From a virus, in IMG/VR virus record IMGVR_UViG_3300020447_000001, positions 1-64,000 of that record: a stretch of DNA of 64,000 nt; one strand, given 5' to 3'. Shown one piece after another: positions 9,701 through 58,868 of the stretch. The position numbers and the translations under genes were made by a program. Positions within the stretch are counted from its first letter, which is position 1, and the number at the start of each line of letters is the position of its first letter. The notes beneath the pieces were generated by a model that was not told the origin of the DNA, made no database searches, and saw only the letters and a program-made list of their open reading frames with translations.

Positions 9701-10939
9701 GCGCAAACGGAAGAGGGCCGACAGCACCGCGTTAATCTTGGTGCTGAGCATGTAAGAATACAGCAAATGGAAGCTAATCGGGCTGTTGATTCGGCAACAA
9801 AACTCTTTAAAGGTGCTTTGACCGCTGAAGGACGGGGATTTCTTTTGACGCCGTCTGGGGAAGTGCTTGATGCTTTGGGTATACCTAGGGACGCAGAGCT
9901 AGAAGGAGAGGAATTGGAACAGGCTCGTAATCTTCAGGGATATCGTAATGTTGCAATGGGCATAAAAGAAACAAAAGATATGTCTGTTGAGGGCATTAAA
10001 GAAATTGCTGACACGGAATGGGAAGACGAAAGCACAGAAGAAGGAAGAGCAGCTAATAAAGCTAAGGCAGAAGCACTTGCAGAGAAACACGGACTACCGG
10101 CAGGTTCTGAGTCTGCCGTTAGGAAGGTAGGCAGGCTTGGAAAACGTATGGGAGTAGTGGGTCGCTTAACCAAAGAAGATGACTCGTCTATCGCTAAGAT
10201 AAAGAGACTAGAGGGAAAACTTAATTGGGAGAAAGTTAGAGAGCACGGCGGAACAGATACCGAGAAGTACCAAGAGCTGCAATCAGAACTTGACGCAGAG
10301 AAAGCAGCGTTAGGAGAGCGACACGAGGGGCATACGGGGGATGAAATTCTTAAAGCACATGCCGATGTAGAGGAAGAGGGTGCGCGTCTTCAACAAGAGG
10401 CCCAAAGAATTACACAGTTAGATAAAGGCGGCGCGGTGGGCGAGCTAGGAGCCTCCTTAGGTTTAGGGGAAGAAGGCGTTAGGAAATTACAAGAAGATTT
10501 TGGTAGTTATGGTCAAACAGACGAAGGAAGCAATATTCTTAAAGATATTTCTATAGCGGCCAAACAATCTAGGGACATTATCGGTAAGTCTGGTTTAGAG
10601 GATAAGGCAGCATTTAGCCTTATTGAACAAGCTAAGGATAATAAATGGACAGCGGACAAGTTAGCTAGTGAAATGGGTGAGGATGTTTCGGCTGATCAAG
10701 CACAGCAATTGTTAACGCACGGAACTACACTCAAACGTTCAGGTATGTTAAGTGGCTTGGCTAAGGGGTTAAAGGGTGAAAAACTTCAGGAGCATGTGTC
10801 TAAAGAGTTAGCCTCCATGGAAGAATCAAAAATGTCCTCAGAAGATTTAAAAGAAAAGGTAATGCAAATAAGAGGGACAGTAACACTTAAGGGTCAAACG
10901 TTAACGTTATCGGAAGTAGAAGGAACACAAGGGCAATAG
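6719..10939 (+). CDS. Tail tape measure protein (probable)
   Basis: A 1406-residue, mostly helical protein directly behind the chaperone genes. Size, composition and position fit a tape measure, which sets tail length and is ejected ahead of the DNA. I chose the GTG at 6719 because AAGGAAG lies nine bases upstream; the TTG at 6701 has no ribosome site. The N-terminal 110 residues are rich in Met, Gln and Pro. The central and C-terminal parts carry long charged coiled-coil stretches. No transmembrane hairpins or peptidoglycan hydrolase motif are obvious, unlike some tape measures. At about 0.15 nm per residue it would fit a tail of roughly 210 nm, which is a family rule of thumb, not a measurement. 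Confidence 0.68.
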   Translation: MQNPYQQQMMPWNMGFQNPYSPNQGQDLMLLQQLSQGFSPVMTMPQQQMRTGFEQLPGFNSPGLTGFALNQFVAPMLQQQMSRQGMVPGGMSSQNMLDYMQNQQFQTQQQDMLRRVAGDTTQAGVVDFFRGAAEMSGREFDAPQRSAARQVGSMAATFAPLLAQIMPEQLDAMSGRKGSAVVMAQRMSNTNRFRVDPVTGLMGYDPESTEQQFRSLFDEMYSDQNMANMRGVRAGEVGGMYQELSKRGMIARDSRPTHLRTAEAASNVWATGGTEAQNRIRDVLGDDAPMTEGGGIDFSKLSPDQMTKLRNQTDVSTQLRSFDSDKIKGSLEGYVDIVSTMKEIFGEAGQANAPMSKLIASLETLTQGGLTQVNPGRLNEMVRTTTQLAQTSGMSIDAALMLQQHSAGALQNRGMNPIMAMQITQGGLAFGQAMGAQGAFANPAWGLGNMDQNRQLDVNLRANAAASPLVNAMGAVTRAGQEAGGYDEGSEAYALDAAIKAGRTSYVNPATGKTVQLSGLTPAGMMDIMAAGNEDISRQQARQYVNQTAANQESIFEHDTANLGRQLQGAQIGRNLYERTARNTARSFLTAEGLDAGMADDIGVAVSGAMQGMTAEERTNKEKRTQIMADAIMESSGGAISEQDARIQAGLMWGNMEERVSGRFSDPRYRGYGSMQNLMLQQDRSTQSLSVLQRKMGKVDARTKNALGGLTGGSWMGKLVGAVQDAKEGGEGAAISDVLGKAVGGVRAEEIRELMEPELVSLNASREKVKTLTQELQNSEEGPNRDRIEQELNEEQALLESKSNELRTMAEENGLLDQEAALDLTDIQEQEEAQAVVADNRRKVLTLDPDDPDSRTLDPGNAEDRKIIEGRMEMLEAGGGGATMRRAEKELRAKNRELLEGAALDPRFMKRAGGRGLRAIQEMEAAMRTQTRLSSYFGGDAARQSTGLVDKEGQADRLENLVLAEERSLFDKEGQLDPRFKGTDVEGLTRSEVMAQTEEGRQHRVNLGAEHVRIQQMEANRAVDSATKLFKGALTAEGRGFLLTPSGEVLDALGIPRDAELEGEELEQARNLQGYRNVAMGIKETKDMSVEGIKEIADTEWEDESTEEGRAANKAKAEALAEKHGLPAGSESAVRKVGRLGKRMGVVGRLTKEDDSSIAKIKRLEGKLNWEKVREHGGTDTEKYQELQSELDAEKAALGERHEGHTGDEILKAHADVEEEGARLQQEAQRITQLDKGGAVGELGASLGLGEEGVRKLQEDFGSYGQTDEGSNILKDISIAAKQSRDIIGKSGLEDKAAFSLIEQAKDNKWTADKLASEMGEDVSADQAQQLLTHGTTLKRSGMLSGLAKGLKGEKLQEHVSKELASMEESKMSSEDLKEKVMQIRGTVTLKGQTLTLSEVEGTQGQ

Positions 10940-43264: not shown

Positions 43265-43585
43265 ATGGCAGTTGATCCTAGTGTACCGGTAAGGAAACTT
43301 GTAATCATGGAAGACGGTATGATTATTGGATTATCTAATAATCATCAATTTGTGACTGCCTTTCCCTTTTTAGCCCCACTAAAGAAATTAACTAACGCAC
43401 GTGTTGGCGGTTGCGGTAAATGCAATTCAGCTGCTAAGCAACGTGTTCAACTACTAAACTCGGCTAAGATGGCAATCATAGGTCTAGGACAAGACAAGAA
43501 AGACCAAATGAAGAAGCTCATGAATGCTAATAAGATACAGGTTAAATACCTGGCTGGACGAGAAGTCAAGACGCACGAGTTCTAA
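43265..43585 (+). CDS. Small hypothetical protein with CGKC motif
   Basis: A 106-residue protein from ATG 43265 (GGAG six to seven bases upstream; the TTG at 43253 has none). It begins with a strand domain (KLVIMEDGMIIGLSNNHQFVTAF) and has one CGKC motif followed by basic helices (KKDQMKKLMNANKIQVKYL). The gene's 3' end forms the left arm of a hairpin reaching to 43625. Function unknown. Confidence 0.5.
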   Translation: MAVDPSVPVRKLVIMEDGMIIGLSNNHQFVTAFPFLAPLKKLTNARVGGCGKCNSAAKQRVQLLNSAKMAIIGLGQDKKDQMKKLMNANKIQVKYLAGREVKTHEF

Positions 43586-43669
43586 CATGCCTATTTAAGC
43601 ACCTAAATTCTTGGCATTATTGCGTCATTATATAGTGAAGGATAATATCCTTCAGCGACCTCAACGGTC
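43570..43669 (+). promoter_or_regulatory. Hairpin series and candidate promoter
   Basis: Three hairpins precede the terminator that follows. The first pairs GACGCA at the gene end with TGCGTC near 43621. The second is TGAAGGAT/ATCCTTCA (43636-43643 / 43647-43654). The third is GACC/GGTC (43657-43660 / 43666-43669). TTGCGT (43620-43625) and TAATAT (43643-43648) are 17 bases apart and could be a sigma-70 promoter, but the -10 box lies inside the second hairpin. Part of this series recurs at 47009-47100. Confidence 0.35.
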
Positions 43670-43715: not shown

Positions 43716-43748
43716 ACATGTACTTTTTGCAAGCAAGGAGCTAGTAAC

Positions 43749-44315
43749 ATGTTAGTAATTCATTTTTCAAATCAATCCGCTCATTGCATCTTCGGGGGCC
43801 TCGGCATTGACGGGCCCTGGACTTATGAAGAAGACGACAACGACTACACCACTGACTATTTGCTGCCCACGGGAGAATTTTTGATCCTGAGCAATGTTCG
43901 TCATAAGTGGTTTCCCGAACTTAGCCATGGGGAAATGATTTGGCAAACGGATCATTGTCATATGTTTTGGGAACGCGTACCGCGTACGCCGAAGGAAATC
44001 GTGGACAGCTTAGAGTCTCTTTTTAGTACCTCGTACACGGACGATAGCGGTGTAACACACACCTGGACGAAGAACATTTACACTGTGTCGGAGCTTGTTG
44101 TTTTGGGCGTCCAGCAACGAATCCGGAACGGTACACTGTGCGACAAGGATGTGAAAATCATTCTGTATCGTAGTGACACGCCGGAGTGGCGTAGTGGCAA
44201 ACACATGCAACTGAATAAGAAAGGTGAGTTCGTAGATTACTGGCCCGGAGGCCTCGCCCTGCAAATCTATGAATTTACTAACGGCTTCGAAGATTTTGCC
44301 TGCATAGTCCCCTGA
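43749..44315 (+). CDS. Accessory hypothetical protein
   Basis: A 188-residue protein, mixed alpha/beta, rich in Trp and His (WFPELSHGEMIWQTDHCHMFWERVP). The ribosome site is GCAAGGAG. The last 28 codons include LQIYEFTNG, whose DNA (44257-44284) equals 28 bases of the structural gene at 20844. Its stop codon lies in the left arm of a terminator. No family recognised. Confidence 0.5.
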   Translation: MLVIHFSNQSAHCIFGGLGIDGPWTYEEDDNDYTTDYLLPTGEFLILSNVRHKWFPELSHGEMIWQTDHCHMFWERVPRTPKEIVDSLESLFSTSYTDDSGVTHTWTKNIYTVSELVVLGVQQRIRNGTLCDKDVKIILYRSDTPEWRSGKHMQLNKKGEFVDYWPGGLALQIYEFTNGFEDFACIVP

Positions 44316-44335
44316 ACATACAGGGGGCTTTTTTA
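44306..44335 (+). terminator. Rho-independent terminator overlapping the stop codon
   Basis: AGTCCCCTG (44306-44314) pairs with CAGGGGGCT (44321-44329) with one G-U pair, followed by six T. The left arm includes the end of the coding region. Confidence 0.8.
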
Positions 44336-44365
44336 TTACATGTACTTTTGCAAGGAGCTAATAAC

Positions 44366-44956
44366 GTGTCGACTTACAATTCTATGAACGAGTTCTACGA
44401 AGACCACTACGAAGACCAAGAATCTTTTGATGCAGACAACGAGCAAAAAGGAGAAGGCATGGAAATTCTAAAAAAGAGAGTTGTTGTACACGAGCGTGGC
44501 GCACAGAAAAAGATCGTAGAGACTATATTTGACGCAGACTTTCGTTATGACGACCTCGGGCTCGAAGGAATTGTTAATGCCAAGCAAACTGCCGGCATAA
44601 CCGGCAGTAACGCTCTATACGAAATCGATTGCGTACTGGGCGCTGATCATAAGGGTAAAGGTTACACCCAAACTTACGAGGTGGAGAGCCTAAGACTTCA
44701 GCTGGGTGAACGCAGCCTTACAGCGTTGCTGATGATTCTTTCGAAGATGCAAAAGTACGCACATTCCAACCTCCCGCAAACCGACGATGAGCTGGCCCAG
44801 GACGATAGTGCGGATGTGTGCGCCCGCAAATTTTCAGGGGCTCGTTTTCATGTTTCTCCAGAAACGCTTGATGCAACTGTTCATCCAGACCACATAGATC
44901 GGAAGGCGAGACAGAATTTGGCACTAACGGTCAAACTGAGTGAACGCCAAGCCTAA
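44366..44956 (+). CDS. Accessory hypothetical protein
   Basis: A 196-residue protein starting at GTG 44366 behind GCAAGGAGC (the TTG at 44348 precedes the ribosome site). The N-terminus is very acidic (EFYEDHYEDQESFDADNEQ). The rest alternates strands and helices, with a C-terminal VKLSERQA. Its unit is closed by a UUCG-loop terminator. No family recognised. Confidence 0.5.
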   Translation: MSTYNSMNEFYEDHYEDQESFDADNEQKGEGMEILKKRVVVHERGAQKKIVETIFDADFRYDDLGLEGIVNAKQTAGITGSNALYEIDCVLGADHKGKGYTQTYEVESLRLQLGERSLTALLMILSKMQKYAHSNLPQTDDELAQDDSADVCARKFSGARFHVSPETLDATVHPDHIDRKARQNLALTVKLSERQA

Positions 44957-44964
44957 AACACCGT

Positions 44965-44986
44965 GCCCCCTTCGGGGGGCTTTTTT
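44965..44986 (+). terminator. UUCG-tetraloop terminator
   Basis: GCCCCC-TTCG-GGGGGC followed by TTTTTT. The extra-stable tetraloop makes it a strong terminator. Confidence 0.9.
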
Positions 44987-45012
44987 ATTTACTTTTTTGC
45001 AAGGAGCTAATT

Positions 45013-45216
45013 ATGAAGATTGAAGTCGATGGTGTTCTCGTTTCAGTCTGTCAGTCATGCCTGGACGGAGAACACAAGAGTTATGGTGAGGATCATCGCA
45101 ACGGCCCACCGGAACGTTGCGACTGTAAAAATATACTGGACGACAAAACACAGTGTATGTGTAGTCCAGAGTGGCCTGAATTAATGACAGCAATTCGCAT
45201 GCAAGAAAGGAGCTAA
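45013..45216 (+). CDS. Small Cys-rich protein
   Basis: A 67-residue protein with a GCAAGGAG site. Cys pairs CQSC near residue 13, CDC near 37 and CMC near 48 could bind one zinc ion. It overlaps nothing; the next start follows two bases after its stop. Such small zinc proteins are common among phage host-takeover genes, but the role here is unknown. Confidence 0.5.
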   Translation: MKIEVDGVLVSVCQSCLDGEHKSYGEDHRNGPPERCDCKNILDDKTQCMCSPEWPELMTAIRMQERS

Positions 45217-45218
45217 TT

Positions 45219-45509
45219 ATGCCCATGGACTTTCCGAATATGGAATCGCTAACGCGGCGTGCTACGCAGCGAGATTTCCGTCAGCCCCACGAGGGCGAGA
45301 CAGAGGTCCAGTATCGAGAGGCGTTCGCGGATTTCATGAAGGACATTGATCTTGTCGAAAGTCATGAGATTCGTGGCGGGTGCGGGTGGGACAGAATGAC
45401 TGATCAGCAAACTACTGAGATGCTGGTCGATCAAGTTGGCGGTAGGGAGAAGTTGCTTAAACTCTTCGCAGATCTCCAAGGAGGAATCAAAGGACAAAAG
45501 GAAGAATGA
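45219..45509 (+). CDS. Small accessory protein
   Basis: A 96-residue helical, acidic protein (EGETEVQYREAFADFMKDIDLVESHEIRGGCGW). AAAGGAGC lies upstream and it overlaps the next gene by four bases. No family recognised. Confidence 0.5.
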   Translation: MPMDFPNMESLTRRATQRDFRQPHEGETEVQYREAFADFMKDIDLVESHEIRGGCGWDRMTDQQTTEMLVDQVGGREKLLKLFADLQGGIKGQKEE

Positions 45510-45730
45510 TGAAAGTAATGTCTGACGGTCAGAACGTTGTAGAACTGTTCTCGGTGCTACTCACTGAAGGAGAAGCACTAGAGTTGATCGAGGGTTTGAG
45601 TAGGCAGCTTAAGCGTCGCAAAGACTTCAAATTTTCTGAATTCGGACGCCTTGAGGTCCAATCAGACAGCGACGAAAGCGGCGAAAGTTTCGCCGCCCTC
45701 ATACACTTCCCCACTTGGGCTGGCTCGTAA
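45506..45730 (+). CDS. Small accessory protein
   Basis: A 74-residue protein with a helix (TEGEALELIEGLSRQLKRRKDF) followed by strands (FGRLEVQSDSDESGESFAALIHF). Translation is coupled to the upstream gene by ATGA; the second Met could also serve. No family recognised. Confidence 0.5.
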   Translation: MMKVMSDGQNVVELFSVLLTEGEALELIEGLSRQLKRRKDFKFSEFGRLEVQSDSDESGESFAALIHFPTWAGS

Positions 45731-45736
45731 CATCGT

Positions 45737-45756
45737 GCCCCTTCGGGGGCTTTTTT
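45737..45756 (+). terminator. UUCG-tetraloop terminator
   Basis: GCCCC-TTCG-GGGGC followed by six T. It is a shorter twin of the one at 44965. Confidence 0.88.
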
Positions 45757-45790
45757 ATTATATGTACTTTTTTGTAAGAAAGGAGCTAAT

Positions 45791-46474
45791 ATGAGTGACC
45801 CTTTAGGGTATATCACTGAACTACGAAATTCACTCGATTCGCCAGTCGTGAAATCGGTGTTCGACAACACCGTAGTTCCTTTTGAGGAGCTAGATGAAGA
45901 CGCGAAAGCTACACTTTACAGTATGGTGTCGGCGTTAGGGTTTATCCGCCTATACGGCATTGATGTGCCGGTGGATGTTGCTATTCGGCTGGCTACTTTC
46001 TCTGTCGCCTGCGTAGCTACAACTATTGAATTCCACATGATTCACGCAGTGAAACATAGGGCGTACGGGCTTATGTCAGAAATAACGGATATGGCGCAGT
46101 CGTTTCCGGAGCGGTTTGACGAGGACGATTTGGAAGAAGGCGAGATTACGAGTATTTTTCACCTGCTCATGGAGTTATGGGCAGTCCGCGCGGCCAGTTC
46201 GCGCTTGGTACCACCAACTAGCGGGAAATTGTTCTGGGTGCCAGCTGAGATCGTGTTGGATACCAAGCTCCATAACAAAGGCCTAAAGGAGGTCCTGTCT
46301 AGCGTCACGTCACTTCCGCTTTTTGACAACTGGCGGAAAATGCTGGTCAAGCCATATTGTGATGATCTGCCTTGGTGGCTCGACGGGACTTTGGAAAAGG
46401 TCGCGAAGAAAATTGGCGATGACATTGACGATGATGAGGTGTACTCATTGAAACGCATTGGGAGTAGTAAATAG
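45791..46474 (+). CDS. Accessory hypothetical protein
   Basis: A 227-residue mostly helical protein behind AGAAAGGAGC. A hydrophobic stretch at residues 58-80 (VDVAIRLATFSVACVATTIEF) may be a buried helix or a membrane contact. An acidic cluster follows (ERFDEDDLEEGE). The C-terminus is charged. The 17-nt repeated motif lies across its stop codon. No family recognised. Confidence 0.5.
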   Translation: MSDPLGYITELRNSLDSPVVKSVFDNTVVPFEELDEDAKATLYSMVSALGFIRLYGIDVPVDVAIRLATFSVACVATTIEFHMIHAVKHRAYGLMSEITDMAQSFPERFDEDDLEEGEITSIFHLLMELWAVRAASSRLVPPTSGKLFWVPAEIVLDTKLHNKGLKEVLSSVTSLPLFDNWRKMLVKPYCDDLPWWLDGTLEKVAKKIGDDIDDDEVYSLKRIGSSK

Positions 46475-46500: not shown

Positions 46501-46641
46501 ATGATTTCACGGATGATACTTATCGTTTTACTTCTGTTCGCTTCGGGATGTGCAACCACCACGAACTTCACTGTGAAGCAAGTGGTCCCGGAGCATCACC
46601 TGTCGTGGGAAGTTTGCCACGGTGTTACAAGGACTTGGTAA
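46501..46641 (+). CDS. Small phage lipoprotein
   Basis: A 46-residue protein, too short for many gene finders. It has M-I-S-R, a hydrophobic run, and the lipobox ASGC with the lipidated Cys at residue 17, leaving a mature peptide of 30 residues (CATTTNFTVKQ...). GGGAGGGA sits seven bases before the ATG. Small lipoproteins of phages act as outer-membrane spanins (Rz1) or as receptor-blocking superinfection exclusion proteins (Llp of T5). It is far from the lysis cassette, which favours exclusion, but this is inference. Confidence 0.68.
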   Translation: MISRMILIVLLLFASGCATTTNFTVKQVVPEHHLSWEVCHGVTRTW

Positions 46642-46653
46642 GGAGGACAACTC

Positions 46654-47025
46654 ATGAGCGAAGAAGAGTATGTTGGTTTTAAAGGAGTAGTAGAGTATCT
46701 AAAAGGTGGAGTCCCCGGCGCAGGAAAAAGTCACGCCATTAAATGTGTTGCTGGAGAATATAATAAGGTCGTTGAGACTGACAAGAACTTGTCTCGGGCG
46801 ATTGACATGCTGGAAAAGTGGGCGGGAAAAGGAGGCCGATTCATTCTGTTATATGAACAGCTCAGGGAAGAAGGCCTGAATCAGGAAGAGGCCATGAAAG
46901 TGGTCAAAGAAGAAGTAGAGATTCAAAAGTTAGAAGCAAAGGGCATGACTCGGAGTGATGCCCAGGGGGTGGTGGAGCTTAACGATCCAAATCACCCAAG
47001 TAACAAGGGACGCAAAAACACCTAA
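46654..47025 (+). CDS. Miniature, internally deleted copy of the Ycf46-like AAA ATPase
   Basis: A 123-residue protein derived from the ATPase encoded at 52588-54486. GFKGVVEYLKG corresponds to GFEGVKDYMRRG of the large protein. GVPGAGKSHAIKCVAGE corresponds to its Walker A region. TDKNLSRAIDMLEKW corresponds to TDKNLSRMLKTIE. The pieces between are missing and the Walker B motif is absent. At DNA level 24 bases are identical (46773-46796 and 53850-53873). The second half is a charged helical extension not found in the parent. AAGGAGG precedes the ATG, so it is probably translated. It could bind ATP or the ATPase ring and poison it, or be a decaying duplicate. Confidence 0.75.
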   Translation: MSEEEYVGFKGVVEYLKGGVPGAGKSHAIKCVAGEYNKVVETDKNLSRAIDMLEKWAGKGGRFILLYEQLREEGLNQEEAMKVVKEEVEIQKLEAKGMTRSDAQGVVELNDPNHPSNKGRKNT

Positions 47026-47045
47026 ATTTTGGGTGTTTTTGCGTC
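47009..47045 (+). terminator. Perfect 14-bp hairpin at the gene end
   Basis: GACGCAAAAACACC (47009-47022) pairs with GGTGTTTTTGCGTC (47032-47045). It contains the stop codon of the preceding gene in its loop. No T-run follows directly; a second hairpin GGGAATCC/GGATTCCC (47059-47077) comes next. Confidence 0.6.
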
Positions 47046-47077
47046 ATTATTATATGAAGGGAATCCTTAGGATTCCC

Positions 47078-47100
47078 AGGCCCTTTATCGGGCCTTTTTT
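47078..47100 (+). terminator. Rho-independent terminator, copy 1 of an identical pair
   Basis: AGGCCC-TTTATC-GGGCCT followed by a T-run. The same hairpin and tail appear at 47453-47474. Confidence 0.82.
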
Positions 47101-47102
47101 AT

Positions 47103-47452
47103 TACTTTGGCAACTAGCTGCCGAAGGCCTGCTCGGGCGCGGAGTATATACAGTTTAAATGCCAGTCCCTAGGTCCTGGCTGTCCGTGTGACCATTAGGC
47201 GAGCCTCTGAGCTCAAGAGCACGGAGCAGCAGCATGTGAAGAGAAATCATGCTGCAAATCTTCAACACACGAGATCGACCGTGGTAGGAATGACAGCGTA
47301 AAGCTGCCTTCCACGGGGGATGCTGTACGACGTAAGTGCCCGTGAGGAAATGTACTCCTCTATGGCCAAACGTGCAGATAATGGAAGTGTGCTCTGGGGT
47401 CGCCAAGCTGGGCGTTAAACGTAGCTAGTGTGACACTTCTTTTACTTTCACT
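47103..47452 (+). ncRNA. Candidate structured non-coding RNA
   Basis: 350 bases with no credible gene, bounded by two identical terminators. Many local inverted repeats occur. GCAGCATG/CATGCTGC pairs at 47229-47236 and 47248-47255. CCGTGG/CCACGG (47279-47284 / 47311-47316) encloses AGG/CCT and CAGC-GTAAA-GCTG. Others are GAGG/CCTC near 47344-47360, CGCC/GGCG at 47401-47414 and AGTG/CACT near 47428-47438. A promoter is not clear. The density of nested stems suggests a functional RNA. It does not look like a tRNA or tmRNA to me, and I cannot assign it to a known class. Confidence 0.5.
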
Positions 47453-47474
47453 GGCCCTTTATCGGGCCTTTTTT
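47453..47474 (+). terminator. Rho-independent terminator, copy 2 of an identical pair
   Basis: GGCCC-TTTATC-GGGCC and a T-run. It closes the candidate RNA region and lies about 27 bases before the next gene. Confidence 0.82.
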
Positions 47475-51116: not shown

Positions 51117-51458
51117 ATGAGTGGAATAAACCGACGATATTTAAAAGCGATGGCTCAGAGGTTAGAAAAGGCAGGGTGGCTATTCACGTCAGAACCTGAG
51201 TTACCGAGAGAGTACGTGGTGGATCAAGCAGTCGAGTGCATGGGCGAGGAGTGGCAGGACAAAGCAGCTGTCGTTTGGGGAGTGGATGACATTCTTACAG
51301 CAGCGCACCCAGCCGACACGCCCGAATGGATGACTAAGAACGAAGCTACTGCAATTCTTTGTGAGGCAGTAAACCAACACGATCCAACACAGGGTATTAC
51401 CTGGGATATTATTGAGGCGTTAATCCAAGAGTTTAAAAACGAAAAGGAGAAGGTATGA
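51117..51458 (+). CDS. Hypothetical protein upstream of the ATPase module
   Basis: A 113-residue protein from ATG 51117, just after the terminator; a longer frame from 51090 would start inside the hairpin. Helical, acidic, with three Trp-rich turns (GWLFTSEPELPREYVVDQAVECMGEEW). It overlaps the DUF1257-like gene by four bases. No family recognised. Confidence 0.5.
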   Translation: MSGINRRYLKAMAQRLEKAGWLFTSEPELPREYVVDQAVECMGEEWQDKAAVVWGVDDILTAAHPADTPEWMTKNEATAILCEAVNQHDPTQGITWDIIEALIQEFKNEKEKV

Positions 51459-52195
51459 GTCATGTATCAGCTGGAAAGTATCCGGTCACAGATCTTGCGG
51501 CATTACTTCAGGCAGTGAAAGGGATGCCTGAGTACGGCATAGATGGATGTCCAGAACTCGAGCTAGTTAAACAAAACACGTACAAATGGTTCGGTAGTAT
51601 TGTGGGTGATTCTGCGCCTACGCCGGTCTACCAGCTCCAGGCCATGATCTACATGGTTAAAGATCTGGGGCTTTCGTGGGAAGAAGTACGAGAGTTAGCA
51701 AAAGGTGCTGGGGTAGAATTACCTGAAAGTCCTCTTCAGATTGAGGAGAATCCACTCGATCTGAATGAGACTCGCAAGCTCCTTCAAATAGCACAATTTA
51801 AGGAGGCGTTCGACAAGCAGAACGAGAAGATTGGTAAGGATGCTGAGTATGTTATTCGCTACAAGAAGGAGCACAGTAGAAGCTCCGAATCATACGAGAT
51901 CGGTGTGATCGAACATCCTGTTCGAAAAGGTGAGTATTGGTTGAGTGCCGACTACTGGCAAAACGGCCAGGGGTTGATGCGCGCCAAGGGTTTAGGCGGA
52001 GTGGTTCATGAAAGAAAAATGGAAGTTGGTCCCGACGGTAAAGAGACAGAAGTCGTTACCACAGAGTGGGGACAAGAGCTGAAGCAACGATATACCGCAG
52101 CGGCTACGGCCAACATAGCTAAACAAGCTGGAAGAAAGGTTAAGTCTGTTGAAAAGTTGCCTGACGGTAAAATATGTGTGGAGACAGAGGAATGA
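51455..52195 (+). CDS. DUF1257-like protein of the Ycf46 module
   Basis: A 246-residue protein. The start MSHVSAGKYPVTDLAALLQAVKGM matches DUF1257 proteins, which begin MSHFS-x-I with a following 'DLxALxxAL'. The C-terminus (LKQRYTAAATANIAKQAGRKVKSVEKLPDGKICVETEE) matches their ending 'QRYA...A...G..V...E.L.DG.I.V'. In cyanobacteria and other bacteria this family sits with DUF2997 and Ycf46 proteins; two genes on in this phage the same pair appears. Its biochemical role is not known. AAAAGGAGAAGG precedes the start. Assigned by pattern from memory. Confidence 0.6.
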   Translation: MSHVSAGKYPVTDLAALLQAVKGMPEYGIDGCPELELVKQNTYKWFGSIVGDSAPTPVYQLQAMIYMVKDLGLSWEEVRELAKGAGVELPESPLQIEENPLDLNETRKLLQIAQFKEAFDKQNEKIGKDAEYVIRYKKEHSRSSESYEIGVIEHPVRKGEYWLSADYWQNGQGLMRAKGLGGVVHERKMEVGPDGKETEVVTTEWGQELKQRYTAAATANIAKQAGRKVKSVEKLPDGKICVETEE

Positions 52196-52401
52196 CTTTT
52201 AAAGATCGGTACGTGTGGTTGACCGTTAAAGGCATTGAATTTTCAGCCAAGTTAGATGACAAGGGTGTTGTAGTGGACGCTTGGGAGGGCGATGAGTGTA
52301 TCGCATCTACCTGGAAAACATACCCAGAGTTTGGCGTAAGAGCTATGTTTTTCGATTCGCACGTACAACAACCTCTAAAGGAGGAAAAAGATGAGTCGTA
52401 A
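52192..52401 (+). CDS. Small hypothetical protein in the Ycf46 module
   Basis: A 69-residue protein from ATG 52192, coupled to the DUF1257-like gene (ATGA). Strands with many aromatic residues (RYVWLTVKGIEFSAKLDDKGVVVDAWEG), ending in charged EEKDES, inside which the next gene starts. No family recognised. Confidence 0.5.
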   Translation: MTFKDRYVWLTVKGIEFSAKLDDKGVVVDAWEGDECIASTWKTYPEFGVRAMFFDSHVQQPLKEEKDES

Positions 52402-52591
52402 GAAAGTATTGATAACGATTGCGAAAAACGGGGACATAGAAAGTATTCAACCCGTAGGATATTCGGGACCAAATGCCTGTTACAAGGCTACTGAACCGTT
52501 TGATAAGGCGTTAGCTCCTAATACTAAAACAGACAAAAAGACACCGGACTATTATAAATCCGAAGCAAACAAATTGAGGGAGACAGAATGA
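52391..52591 (+). CDS. DUF2997-like protein of the Ycf46 module
   Basis: A 66-residue protein, MSRKKVLITIAKNGDIESIQPVGYSGPNACYKATEPFDKAL. DUF2997 members have the same layout: a first strand pair 'I-x-I-x-x-x-G-x-[VI]', then 'G-x-x-G-x-x-C' and a helix with 'T-x-x-[LF]-x-x-x-L', ending near 65 residues. AAAGGAGG lies before the start. It overlaps both neighbours slightly, so stoichiometric production with the ATPase is likely. Confidence 0.6.
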   Translation: MSRKKVLITIAKNGDIESIQPVGYSGPNACYKATEPFDKALAPNTKTDKKTPDYYKSEANKLRETE

Positions 52592-54486
52592 GTAAACTAA
52601 CTACTGAGCTAAACGAAGCGCAGGCGTGCCACGAAAGCGCAATTGTTATTGAAACAACTGAGCCAAGAGAAGTGGAGAATGAGATTCGGGAATTGGTGTA
52701 TAGTCAAAACAAATCGGTAGACGATGCCGACAAATCAGTTTTATTGGCTATTCATGATCCGGTTAAAGGGCTTTGCGATTCTGAGGGAATGCCGTTCAAT
52801 GGCGGTGCAGGAGCACAAGACCCTGAGTTAGCAAAGCTAGGTATTGTGCCACAAGCACAGGGCGCTGAAGATGCCCTAACCGCAGTCCAGTTCTTTATGG
52901 ATATAGCACAGGAGCGACTTACCCGGCTAGAGAATGACGAAGCTCAACCTGGGGATAGTTCGCTTCAGATTCTGATGCTGAAGTACTTCGATCGTCAACT
53001 AATGCCTAACGGGTCAGACTCAAACGCTGATCCAATATTATTGACGGCAATTGACCATCTATGTCGCATAGGTGCTCAAGTCAACGTATGCGCAATTTTG
53101 TTAACTCAACCCGGAGCAAAGCTTCCAGCTGAGTTCATTGAGTACTGTGCAGTTATTGATCACGAGCTTCCTCCGAATGATGTGAGAGAACTCATCATTG
53201 AGGATCTTGTTGAGACGTGTTCGTTTGCTTCGGACATATCTAAAGAAGAGATAACTGCAACTATAAAAGTCACGAGCGGCTTGAGTTACTCAGGTACCGA
53301 ACGAATTGTAGCGAGAAGTCTTACTAAGCATAAGGGTTTGAACCCATCCGCTATGTTGCGGGAGAAAGGAAAACAGTTAGCAAAGCGAGACCTGGGGTTC
53401 TGGTGTGCTGACATGGACCCCTTTGTATTGTGGCCCGTTCCGGATAATGAGTTTAACCAATACCGCGAGGTTATTTGTCTGGCGGAGGAAACTCATCAGA
53501 TGAATTCTCAAGTTCCAGACGGTCATGTTAGAGCCCGTGTTCGATATTTAGATGAGGAGATTAAAAAGGAACACTGGCTTGATCCAATGCCTCTCGTAGA
53601 CTTCGAATCGCAATTTCGCCCTGAGCGAGATTATTTCAGTTACAAAAACTGGATTGGGTTTGAAGGCGTTAAAGATTATATGCGTAGGGGCGCAGGTACG
53701 GTGCAGCCAGATCGTTGCCATATGAAGGGCATCTTGTTTGTTGGCGTTCCTGGGGCTGGTAAATCCTTCGGTATTAAGTGTACCGCAGGAGAACTAAAAA
53801 TGCCCGTTACCTCAATTGAATCGGGTAAGTTGTTTAGCATGTGGCAAGGTGAGACTGACAAGAACTTGTCTCGTATGCTGAAAACTATCGAAGCGATTGG
53901 GGGAATGCTCGCTATTGACGAATACCAACGATTCATCAGCGAAAAGAAAGATAGTTCTGGTAAGTCATCTGGTGACGGAGGCACCGGCGAGCGAGTATCT
54001 GGAGGTATTCTAACTTGGCAGCAAAACCAGAACGGCGTGTTCATTTTTGGATGTGCTAACGATATCAGTTCTATCCCGTCTGCGTTTACAAGGTCCGGGC
54101 GTTTTCAAAGCACCTTTGTTGTCGGTTTTCCTGGTCGTAAGGCTAAGGATAAAGGCTGGGAAGGGTATAGAAAACGTCATTGTCTTGAGCAACAGGAGCC
54201 GCCAAACGACGAAAACTGGACCGTCGGTGAGATTGCAGAATGCTGCAAGATTGCCGAGCAACAGCGCCTTTCCCTTAAAGACGCAGAAAAGTACGTCAAA
54301 CGCGTCTATAAGGGAGATGGTAAAAAGGAGCAAGACGCTTTATTTGAATGGGCAGAAGACGCTGATTGCATGTGCGTAGAAACTGGCGAGAAGTTTGTGC
54401 ATCCGCGCAAGCAGAAAAGAACTAAGTCAGCTAGTTCTAAGCCCACTACTCGTGCACCTCGTCGAGGTGTCAGAAAGGTTGATTAA
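52588..54486 (+). CDS. AAA ATPase, Ycf46-like
   Basis: A 632-residue ATPase. Residues 1-250 match the N-terminal part of Ycf46 proteins: a loss-of-order start, then 'VCAILLTQPGAKLPAEFIEYCAVIDHELP', where Ycf46 has 'LPxELxxxxxxxxxxLP'. The AAA core has Walker A GVPGAGKS (386-393), sensor-proximal TDKNLSR, and Walker B MLAIDEYQRF with Asp 444 and Glu 445, then a GERVSGGILTWQQNQNGVFIFGCANDISSIPSAFTRSGRF stretch with the arginine finger and sensor residues. The tail is basic. The ring probably remodels proteins; partners are likely the DUF1257- and DUF2997-like proteins. A truncated copy lies at 46654. Confidence 0.75.
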   Translation: MSKLTTELNEAQACHESAIVIETTEPREVENEIRELVYSQNKSVDDADKSVLLAIHDPVKGLCDSEGMPFNGGAGAQDPELAKLGIVPQAQGAEDALTAVQFFMDIAQERLTRLENDEAQPGDSSLQILMLKYFDRQLMPNGSDSNADPILLTAIDHLCRIGAQVNVCAILLTQPGAKLPAEFIEYCAVIDHELPPNDVRELIIEDLVETCSFASDISKEEITATIKVTSGLSYSGTERIVARSLTKHKGLNPSAMLREKGKQLAKRDLGFWCADMDPFVLWPVPDNEFNQYREVICLAEETHQMNSQVPDGHVRARVRYLDEEIKKEHWLDPMPLVDFESQFRPERDYFSYKNWIGFEGVKDYMRRGAGTVQPDRCHMKGILFVGVPGAGKSFGIKCTAGELKMPVTSIESGKLFSMWQGETDKNLSRMLKTIEAIGGMLAIDEYQRFISEKKDSSGKSSGDGGTGERVSGGILTWQQNQNGVFIFGCANDISSIPSAFTRSGRFQSTFVVGFPGRKAKDKGWEGYRKRHCLEQQEPPNDENWTVGEIAECCKIAEQQRLSLKDAEKYVKRVYKGDGKKEQDALFEWAEDADCMCVETGEKFVHPRKQKRTKSASSKPTTRAPRRGVRKVD

Positions 54487-54488
54487 GT

Positions 54489-54725
54489 ATGATTTCTAGC
54501 GATCCTTTAGTGGGAACGTTGGAAGAGAAAGCAATCGAAAATCCCCACGAGTCGCAAGATGAGTGGGGATTTTTGCATTCTCCTCCGAAGTCAGTGAAGA
54601 TTATTTATAAGACCACGGCATACGCAGGAATGATAGTGGGAATTGCTTTAGCGTTTCCGCTCATCGCTGTATCTAGCGCTAAGAAGTGGTACGACAAAAG
54701 TAGAAAGGACAAATACGGTGAGTAG
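54489..54725 (+). CDS. Single-span membrane protein
   Basis: A 78-residue protein following the ATPase by two bases. An acidic N-terminal part is followed by a membrane span at about residues 42-63 (TTAYAGMIVGIALAFPLIAV) and a basic tail (KKWYDKSRKDKYGE). It may anchor the ATPase partners at the membrane. Overlaps the next gene (GTGAGTAG). Confidence 0.5.
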   Translation: MISSDPLVGTLEEKAIENPHESQDEWGFLHSPPKSVKIIYKTTAYAGMIVGIALAFPLIAVSSAKKWYDKSRKDKYGE

Positions 54726-56163
54726 TAATGAACAATGGGAGCCGTTTTTCAACGCGTATCCCGAGCAAAGTGACGATCTACTCTTACAAACGATGGAGGA
54801 AGAAATGGCAGAAAATGCACAGGAACCTACCCCACAAACACCGCAGGATGCAGTAGATAATTTGGGTGAAATTGACGTGGATCAAGCAGCGAATTGGGTG
54901 GGCAGTAATTGTTCATTCTTTTGTTATAGCATTAGCAGCCCGCCCAAAAGTCGGACGATTCCTAGGAATGAGATGGAAGTTATTGCGTCTGCTGCTCATG
55001 CAGATCCGGATGCAGTTCAAACTTCTTTGAAGATCTTTGATCCGAAGGAATTTCCTATTATCAAGGAGGGAGCGGCAGTACAAAAGCGCTTTGACGCGCT
55101 CATTAACAAATACGCAGTTCCGAAGCAAACACTTGTGCGGGGGTTAGCTGCAAAGACCGCAGAGGAAAATGGTGGTCTTAAACAAGTTGTAGACAACGAG
55201 CGCGATAAAGGACGTTATATGATTCTCAACGAGAACATTGAAACGTTCGTGACGCAGTTCGATGTGATTATGGCTTCTTACATGGATTGGGGGCAACGAT
55301 TGTTGCAACGATATGAAACCATTAAAGAACGCGATAAGACGCGATTAGCTGATTTCTGGTCGTTGATTCGCCATAAGTATCCGAGTCAAGCTTATGTGGA
55401 GTCAAAGATTCGTGTTCGCTCGCCCTCGTTTGAAGCAGCTAATCACATGCTGAGTACGACTCATTTGCCGCAAAGGATGCGAGAAGCATTAACTGAGCAA
55501 TATAAGTCCGAAGCTGCTTCGCAGGTTCAGGCTTGTTGTGAGGCTATGATGCAAGCGCTTCTGGATGCGGTGACGCTCGCCACTAAGCAGTTGGGACGAA
55601 GGACTCGAGTTAATCCTGCAATTGAGGATCCGGATTACGCCCATCTTCGAGATGGAGAAGTAGCTTTCTTTGAGAGTCACGAAGACGCCAAGGAAGATAT
55701 TCCGGAGGATTTTGTTCGTGTGAAAATCCAACTCGTTAAGACAGACGAGAACGGAAAGCGAACGAATAAGCGTGATCAGCAGGGTAATCCAGCGACGGAA
55801 GTGTTATTAATTCCCGAGGAAGAGTTTACTTCGCGTTTAAAGCCTCGCCAAACGAATGACGAGTATTGTCGCTTGTTCGACGGACAAATACAGGCTTTGA
55901 TTGATATGGGCGAGAAGCTGCATAAGTTCGAGGGATTGTTGGACGTAGGGAATAGCCCGTTGAAATCGTTTTCAGACCAAGTGCAAACTATCTTGACTGC
56001 ACATGGTGAATCTAGTTCGTCTATCACTAACAGCCTCAAAAATAGTGGATTACGACGAGATACTGTGCATGGTCAATTGTCTGATTTAAAAGGAAAATTG
56101 GCGGAGCAACTTACTATTCAAAGTAAGAAGAAAAAGGTAAGTCGACGTAACTTAGGCGTTTAG
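54718..56163 (+). CDS. Coiled-coil protein with RRNLGV tail
   Basis: A 481-residue protein starting at GTG 54718 within the end of the previous gene. After an acidic start and one Cys-rich patch (GSNCSFFCYSISSPP) it is mainly helical: residues about 140-300 and 380-460 look like long coiled coils. The end reads KKKKVSRRNLGV, matching the KKKIARRNLGV end of the next protein. Its position next to an AAA ATPase and its helical layout recall DUF3150-type partners of such ATPases, but I could not confirm it. Confidence 0.5.
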   Translation: MSSNEQWEPFFNAYPEQSDDLLLQTMEEEMAENAQEPTPQTPQDAVDNLGEIDVDQAANWVGSNCSFFCYSISSPPKSRTIPRNEMEVIASAAHADPDAVQTSLKIFDPKEFPIIKEGAAVQKRFDALINKYAVPKQTLVRGLAAKTAEENGGLKQVVDNERDKGRYMILNENIETFVTQFDVIMASYMDWGQRLLQRYETIKERDKTRLADFWSLIRHKYPSQAYVESKIRVRSPSFEAANHMLSTTHLPQRMREALTEQYKSEAASQVQACCEAMMQALLDAVTLATKQLGRRTRVNPAIEDPDYAHLRDGEVAFFESHEDAKEDIPEDFVRVKIQLVKTDENGKRTNKRDQQGNPATEVLLIPEEEFTSRLKPRQTNDEYCRLFDGQIQALIDMGEKLHKFEGLLDVGNSPLKSFSDQVQTILTAHGESSSSITNSLKNSGLRRDTVHGQLSDLKGKLAEQLTIQSKKKKVSRRNLGV

Positions 56164-57306: not shown

Positions 57307-57340
57307 ACGGGGGCGGCATATTAGTGTCGCCCCCGTTTTT
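57307..57340 (+). terminator. Rho-independent terminator
   Basis: ACGGGGGCG (57307-57315) pairs perfectly with CGCCCCCGT (57328-57336), followed by TTTT. It separates the ATPase operon from the GHKL-peptidase gene. Confidence 0.9.
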
Positions 57341-57350
57341 GGAGGTACAC

Positions 57351-58868
57351 ATGAGTTGGTTTGAAGTAGATCGAAAAGGGATGAGGCAGGTTAATCAGAG
57401 GATTGTTGATCGCCGTGGATTCGGCATCATGATGGGAGAGTTGTATCAGAATGTAATGGATACAGATGCGACGGAGTGTTTCATCACTACGACAAATCTA
57501 GAAGGACGTTCTCGAGTTGAGGTAGTTATAACAGACAATGGTCCTGGTTTTGCTCGTCTTTCGGACGCCTGGACAATGTTTGCACCGTCCATGAAGAAAG
57601 ACGATCCTACAAAAGCCGGTCGTTTCAACCTGGGCGAGAAGATGGTGCTATCGTTCTGCCACAGTGCGCAGATCGAGACGACGAGCGGTACTGTTGAGTT
57701 TAATGAGGATGATGACGATCGAAAACTGGATGTGCGACGAAAATACGCGGACGGTACTCGAGTTACGTTGGAGTTGATGTGTAATCAAAAACAGTTCGAT
57801 GAAATGCTGGATTACATACCTACACTTATTGTGCGTGAAGGATTACGTCTTTGCGTAAACGGCGCGGAGATACATCATCGCGAACCTATCGCAACGTGGG
57901 AAGAAACTATCCCTACCGAGATCGGAGAAGATTTACGGAAGAGCCGCCGTAAAACAGAAGTTCGTATCTATGAGCCTGAAATAGGCGAAGTACCTATGCT
58001 TTACGAAATGGGTATCCCCGTCGTTGAGACAGGAGATAAGTGGCATGTTTCTGTTGAGCAGAAGGTTCCTCTCAATACAGAGCGGGACAACGTAACGCCT
58101 TCGTTCCTGAAGGAAGTCCGCGTGTCTGTTGTTAACAACATGCACGAGCAGTTGGACGAGGAAGATACTCAAGCGGCGTGGGTCAATGAGGCTACGTCCG
58201 ATAAGCGTTGTAATGACGATGCATCTGAGACTTTTCGCATTAAGAAGTATGGCGAGAAAAGTGTGGCGTTTGATCCCTCCAACCCCGAGGCAAACGCTGT
58301 AGCCATGAGTGAGGGATACACGATTATCCCTTCGCGTGGTCTTACGTCTGGGCAGCGAGATAATCTGAAAGGCGCTGGAACATTAAGTTCGTCATCTCAA
58401 GAGTTTCCTACCGCAGGTGTAGGAGCGTACAGCGACGATCCTACATCTCCACCAGTGGAAGTACTTGCAGAGGATGACTTAACCGAAGCTATGGTGGAGG
58501 TTCGTCAGTACTCCAAGGTGCTTGGTATGGAGCTTTTGGGTGTGGCAATCAGCGTTAGGTTTGTCCGCATGAAGAGGTTCCCAGGAAAACCCTGGATTGC
58601 GGCTTTTGGGGCCAAACAATTGGACTTTAATGTCCATAAGATTGGTAAGAAAGCATTTGCCACAAAGTACGCAGTTGGAACCGAAAATCTAGACTCGCTA
58701 TTGATTCACGAGTTTGGTCATCATTTCGAGTCTGATCATCTTAGCTCTAAGTACCACGAAGCTTTGTGTAACTTAGGTGCGAAACTAAAGGCTGTGACTT
58801 TAAACCAATTGCAGGCCGCTCAAAAGGCTAATGACGACGGAGTCTCTTATGAGAAGGTACAGAAATGA
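57351..58868 (+). CDS. GHKL ATPase fused to HExxH metallopeptidase
   Basis: A 505-residue protein from ATG 57351 behind GGAGG. The N-terminal 190 residues carry the ATP-binding signs of the GHKL superfamily (Hsp90, MutL, histidine kinases, T4 rIIA): MGELYQNVMDTDATE (N-box with Glu, Asn, Asp), ITDNGPGF (G1) and GRFNLGEKM (G2, lid). A middle domain holds strands like a transducer. Near the C-terminus LLIHEFGHHFESDH gives a zinc peptidase motif, H453-E454-x-x-H457 and a possible third ligand H463 at the metzincin spacing, though Glu replaces the usual Gly. ATP-driven shape change might control peptidase activity. I know of no named protein with this arrangement. Confidence 0.8.
   Translation: MSWFEVDRKGMRQVNQRIVDRRGFGIMMGELYQNVMDTDATECFITTTNLEGRSRVEVVITDNGPGFARLSDAWTMFAPSMKKDDPTKAGRFNLGEKMVLSFCHSAQIETTSGTVEFNEDDDDRKLDVRRKYADGTRVTLELMCNQKQFDEMLDYIPTLIVREGLRLCVNGAEIHHREPIATWEETIPTEIGEDLRKSRRKTEVRIYEPEIGEVPMLYEMGIPVVETGDKWHVSVEQKVPLNTERDNVTPSFLKEVRVSVVNNMHEQLDEEDTQAAWVNEATSDKRCNDDASETFRIKKYGEKSVAFDPSNPEANAVAMSEGYTIIPSRGLTSGQRDNLKGAGTLSSSSQEFPTAGVGAYSDDPTSPPVEVLAEDDLTEAMVEVRQYSKVLGMELLGVAISVRFVRMKRFPGKPWIAAFGAKQLDFNVHKIGKKAFATKYAVGTENLDSLLIHEFGHHFESDHLSSKYHEALCNLGAKLKAVTLNQLQAAQKANDDGVSYEKVQK

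Follow-up and report, generated by a model that had tools for sequence, protein, structure and literature searches.

A phage gene whose 5' half derives from pieces of an AAA ATPase gene

The open reading frame (ORF) at 46654-47025 carries a Walker A motif, and an earlier note, made from the sequence alone, described it as a miniature AAA ATPase lacking Walker B and copied from the full-length ATPase gene at 52588. This raises the question of where the sequence of such a short gene comes from, and whether anything of an ATPase is left in it. The window analysed here, a stretch of 64,000 nt, is the first part (bases 1-64000) of a virus record of 116,382 bases. The features discussed are collected in Table 1.

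Table 1. Features of the chimeric gene, its surroundings and the full-length ATPase gene, in window coordinates. L003 is the related contig described in the text.
Feature	Position	Strand	Remarks
Small lipoprotein gene, 46 aa, o-spanin/Rz1-like	46501..46641	+	Just upstream of the chimeric ORF; in L003, 91% identical
Divergent block (cassette)	46623..46888	+	Flanks nearly identical to L003; about 200 bp without L003 counterpart
Shine-Dalgarno AAGGAGG	46640..46646	+	7 nt before the ATG of the chimeric ORF
Chimeric ORF, 123 aa	46654..47025	+	ATG start; ATPase-derived residues about 4-58, native helical domain 62-123
ATPase piece 1, EEYVGFKGVVEYLKG	46663..46707	+	Helix before β-1; 5/14 aa identical to window ATPase, 3/14 to L003
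ATPase piece 2, GVPGAGKSHAIKCVAGEYNKVV	46708..46773	+	Walker A loop and helix α-1
ATPase piece 3, ETDKNLSR...	46773..46827	+	Helix α-2; first 24 nt as in window ATPase 53850-53873
Native C-terminal helical domain	46837..47022	+	Homologous to L003 60-aa ORF; near-identical DNA from 46889
Terminator-like hairpin, 17-bp stem	47009..47045	+	Overlaps the last codons of the chimeric ORF
Full-length AAA ATPase, 632 aa	52588..54486	+	Source family of the pieces; PF00004 match 3.4e-16
ATPase segment deleted at gap 1	53692..53742	+	Includes strand β-1, GILFV
ATPase segment deleted at gap 2	53809..53850	+	Strand β-2 and pore loop 1 (MWQG), TSIESGKLFSMWQG

Two sources for one short gene

The similarity between the two proteins is real (blastp E = 4e-11). 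It consists of a single colinear alignment in three pieces separated by gaps of 18 and 14 residues, in agreement with the internal deletions noted before, and it extends beyond the generic P-loop, as the pieces before and after Walker A match too. A permissive local alignment scores 134, compared with a mean of 46 (sd 6.6, maximum 75.5) for 500 shuffled sequences. The 24 identical bases reported earlier (46773-46796 and 53850-53873) are an exact match. Both proteins have the eight residues ETDKNLSR, and given these shared residues and the codon usage of this genome, the first seven codons would be identical by chance with P of about 7e-4. The sequence that follows the 24 bp in the chimera is strongly diverged, as is piece 1. 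The similarity ends at about residue 58, with nothing significant further on; it stops short of LAIDE, and Walker B is indeed missing. The other partial duplications of proteins in the genome above E = 1e-4 are between diverged paralogues of 24–45% identity, and the chimera and the ATPase form the only pair of the deleted-fragment kind.

The remainder of the gene has a different origin, which the earlier note missed: residues 62-123 come from a small gene with no relation to the ATPase. The sole related contig that was found is IMGVR_UViG_3300031623_000011 (L003). Syntenic with the window, it contains a 60-aa ORF (10010-10192) that matches residues 61-123 of the chimera with 79% amino acid identity (E 8e-30). 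In L003 this ORF comes directly after the upstream lipoprotein gene, its start ATG overlapping the stop codon of that gene (TAATG). The Shine-Dalgarno sequence of the chimeric ORF is missing there, and there is no ATPase-like sequence at the corresponding locus (9836-10282). The chimera is therefore related to two genes, its N-terminal part to the ATPase and its C-terminal part to the 60-aa ORF. Scans of viral contigs using proteins, alignments and degenerate DNA revealed no relative besides L003, and a genome scan for relatives gave no more than one distant AAA. A phage collection, searched at the protein and DNA level, held no convincing gene similar to the chimera.

The relative makes it possible to ask which ATPase allele the pieces resemble. 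Piece 2 is identical to the L003 ATPase at 58/66 nt and 21/22 aa, and to the window ATPase at 41/66 nt and 15/22 aa. Conversely, the eight codons of 46773-46796, which are those of the window ATPase, agree with the L003 ATPase at only 16/24 nt. At the sites that distinguish the two ATPases, piece 2 favours L003 by 20:3 and piece 3 favours the window by 7:0 (Fisher p = 6e-5). Piece 1 is diverged from both. From these preferences of pieces 2 and 3, it follows that the added segment is mosaic, combining more than one ATPase allele, and is no straightforward copy of the 52588 gene. Descent from the ATPase is the only sensible direction, because the ATPase has the complete AAA fold. The idea of a copy of the full ATPase thus stands as far as descent from the ATPase family is concerned; it does not stand for the Walker A piece, which comes from another allele, closest to that of L003, nor for the C-terminal half, a separate small gene that is found on its own in L003.

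Seven of the eight differences between piece 2 and the L003 ATPase are synonymous. This bias could predate the copying, having arisen in the donor ATPase, and is no evidence of selection on the chimera. The viral contig scans did not yield the exact donor allele, which would be expected to read EEYVGFKGV...GVPGAGKSHAIKCVAGEYNKVV...ETDKNLSRAIDMLEKW. Neither the genome of the window nor L003 contains a convincing source elsewhere for piece 1 or for 46797-46844. The existence of several alleles is in keeping with the ATPases themselves: the 52588 ATPase and its L003 counterpart have 59% amino acid identity, compared with 74–98% for the other compared genes. The ATPase is the most divergent of these genes, so that several alleles evidently circulate.

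It is worth adding that the 24 bp contain an imperfect palindrome (GACAAGAACTTGTC) and were considered as a conserved operator. This candidate was rejected: the L003 ATPase lacks the sequence at the same place, and the window has no further exact or one-mismatch copy.

What remains of the AAA fold

The missing strands were located from an alignment of the ATPase to p97/CDC48 together with the known AAA fold. An AlphaFold2 model of the full ATPase, based on a two-sequence alignment, was too poor (pLDDT 33), and the strands were therefore mapped by alignment. The chimera retains the helix before β-1 (α-0), the P-loop with α-1, and α-2, and not one core strand. The Walker A motif is present (GVPGAGKS, residues 19-26, matching GxxGxGK[ST]), but the strand that positions it is gone. 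Nothing is left from Walker B onwards, and sensor 1, the arginine finger and the lid domain are all absent. The description as a miniature AAA ATPase is not supported, since β-1, β-2 and pore loop 1 are lost as well.

Searches with the chimeric protein agree with this. PF00004 has no match in the 123-aa protein at E ≤ 1. A single-sequence AlphaFold2 model, which is weak evidence on the N-terminal half, consists of helices only, with no strand; its pLDDT stays under 50 for most of residues 1-58 and is about 81–87 over residues 71-110. Foldseek run with this model gave nothing significant, and no AAA fold. Because the core strands are missing from the extension, neither ATP binding and hydrolysis in the manner of an AAA domain nor entry into the ring would be expected of it. 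In small phage ORFs, a Walker A motif is not enough to indicate an ATPase.

The locus and its reading frame

At the DNA level, the window and L003 are fully identical over 46573-46622 and almost identical from 46889 on. Between these points, 6/20 positions differ at 46623-46642 and 22/44 at 46845-46888, a significant clustering of mismatches both upstream (p = 0.0017) and downstream (p = 1.7e-10). Sharp breaks in identity at about 46622 and 46889 therefore bound the added segment, and a divergent block between near-identical flanks points to recombination with a more diverged relative. Protein identities between the two contigs are 97% for a 694-aa glycosyltransferase, 98% for a 256-aa protein, 95% for the DUF3150-like protein and 89% for the DUF1257-like protein. 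Two neighbouring parts of the window (43722-46467 and 47113-47453) are unmatched in L003, as is L003 7828-9708 in the window. On this comparison, the locus of the chimera is a region of cassette gain and loss.

The reading frame is intact across the chimera. Every junction is in frame, and the frame contains no stop. The ribosome site, which the earlier note judged to be good, is near-perfect and lies directly 5' of the ATG. Codon usage in the N-terminal half scores 0.157 in frame, resembling the 0.189 of the ATPase, while the other frames are near or below zero. The 5' arm of the strong hairpin at 47009-47045 is made up of the last codons of the ORF, and the folding of the surrounding region has a z of -6.2 (46960-47110). 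The fusion is in frame with a good ribosome site, and judging from the sequence the ORF is probably translated.

Several other features of the region were noted. The 46-aa lipoprotein has a weak match to phrog_456, an Rz-like spanin (E 0.006), and resembles Rz1-type outer spanins. L003 7828-9708 is a cassette that the window lacks at 43585-43592; its four ORFs lie on the reverse strand and by eye look nucleotidyltransferase-, cupin-, HAD- and sugar-kinase-like. Window 47113-47453 is a 340-bp insertion relative to L003, flanked by near-identical terminators (47078-47095 and 47453-47468). It has no good ORF, it folds somewhat better than shuffled sequences (z -2.0), and Rfam gave no match to it; it is possibly a non-coding RNA cassette. 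In the Rfam search as a whole no family reached the gathering score, and near the chimeric gene there was nothing credible.

Further genes deserve mention. The full-length ATPase (52588) lies in a gene set at 51455-56163 together with DUF1257-like (51455, E 0.014), DUF2997-like (52391, E 0.006) and DUF3150-like (54718, E 6e-5) genes. Within this set the ATPase diverges fastest (59% versus 80–95%). The set resembles the cyanobacterial ycf35-DUF2997-ycf46 set. A 514-aa protein at 57324-58868 has a HATPase_c (GHKL) domain at its N-terminal end (E 1e-5), and close to the C-terminus lies a possible metallopeptidase motif, HEFGHH. The 1158-aa protein at G000 92293-95769 (L009 8293-11769) combines a uracil-DNA glycosylase (E 3e-19) with a family A DNA polymerase (E 2.5e-40).

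Origin of the chimera

On the basis of these observations, we consider it probable that the gene is an in-frame chimera that arose through recombination in a tailed phage, in a region where cassettes vary. We hypothesise that short-homology recombination among related phages, illegitimate or homeologous, placed pieces of an ATPase gene in front of the small gene, and that this event brought or created the strong ribosome site. The product would be the small helical protein with an N-terminal extension. Its working part, if it has one, would be the C-terminal domain, with the ATPase-derived part as passenger sequence or a structural extension. The comparison with one relative is compatible with a gain of the ATPase segment here and with its loss in L003.

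The main rival is that the N-terminal part is a decaying, internally deleted fragment of an ATPase gene, its open frame a coincidence, and that only the C-terminal small gene is still expressed, from an internal start. The pieces are indeed heavily deleted and have lost the core of the fold, divergence is strong in piece 1 and beyond the 24 bp, and L003 lives without the ATPase-derived part. However, the frame is kept at the two internal deletions and at the fusion, which for three junctions would happen about 1 in 27 times at random; it has no stop, and a near-perfect ribosome site stands right before the chimeric ATG. We therefore regard decay as rather unlikely, and of the decaying copy suggested earlier only the N-terminal part still comes into consideration. 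The in-frame junctions and the ribosome site argue against pure decay but are no proof of function.

The earlier note also proposed a dominant-negative or a regulator of the ATPase ring, in which case the helices might mimic a subunit face or an adaptor-binding surface. The sequence shared with the ATPase, including helix α-2 with its 24 identical bases, and the good ribosome site fit such a role, but no positive evidence for it emerged. All core strands, Walker B, sensor 1, the arginine finger and the lid are gone, and no AAA fold is seen in the model or by Foldseek. The chimera lies 5.5 kb from the ATPase gene with its own terminator-like hairpin at the end, and its Walker A piece is closer to another allele than to the ATPase of this genome. 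Poisoning of the ring is unlikely, as hardly anything required to assemble a ring or to hydrolyse nucleotides has been kept, and we consider a regulatory role improbable.

The match of the pieces to two different ATPase alleles would also be expected if the sequences of related phages in a mixed population had been merged during assembly. Such an assembly chimera is highly improbable given the synteny with L003 on both flanks and the intact frame, and the shared 24 bp appear to be below the usual assembly overlap length. Least credible of all is that the chimeric gene serves as a reserve of sequence and swaps short tracts with the ATPase gene, although such gene conversion, if it took place, would explain both the 24-bp identity and the low conservation of the ATPase between the phages (59%, compared with 74–98% for its neighbours).

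Recombination thus remains the preferred origin, and the locus is a readable case in which a new 5' end of a phage gene has been built from pieces smaller than a domain that belong to a different phage gene family; L003 shows the same gene without the added 5' end. It looks like a snapshot of phage gene shuffling rather than a miniature motor protein.

The chimera can be compared with three known systems. It has the Walker A loop, α-1 and α-2 in common with classic AAA ATPases (PF00004; CDC48/p97-like), but lacks their β-1, β-2, pore loop, Walker B, sensor 1, arginine finger and lid. Phage recombinases recombine diverged phage sequences (PMC2327257, PMC3945230), and such homeologous recombination is expected to leave sharp breaks between near-identical and diverged sequence, as seen here. 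The chimera also resembles the in-frame shuffling of protein fragments, or domain mosaicism, documented in phages (PMC10684548), where protein fragments are likewise fused in frame to an unrelated protein. The difference is that here the fragments are three sub-domain pieces of an AAA ATPase, and no foldable domain. The chimera is a further instance of known phage fragment shuffling, unusual in that its fragments are smaller than a domain.
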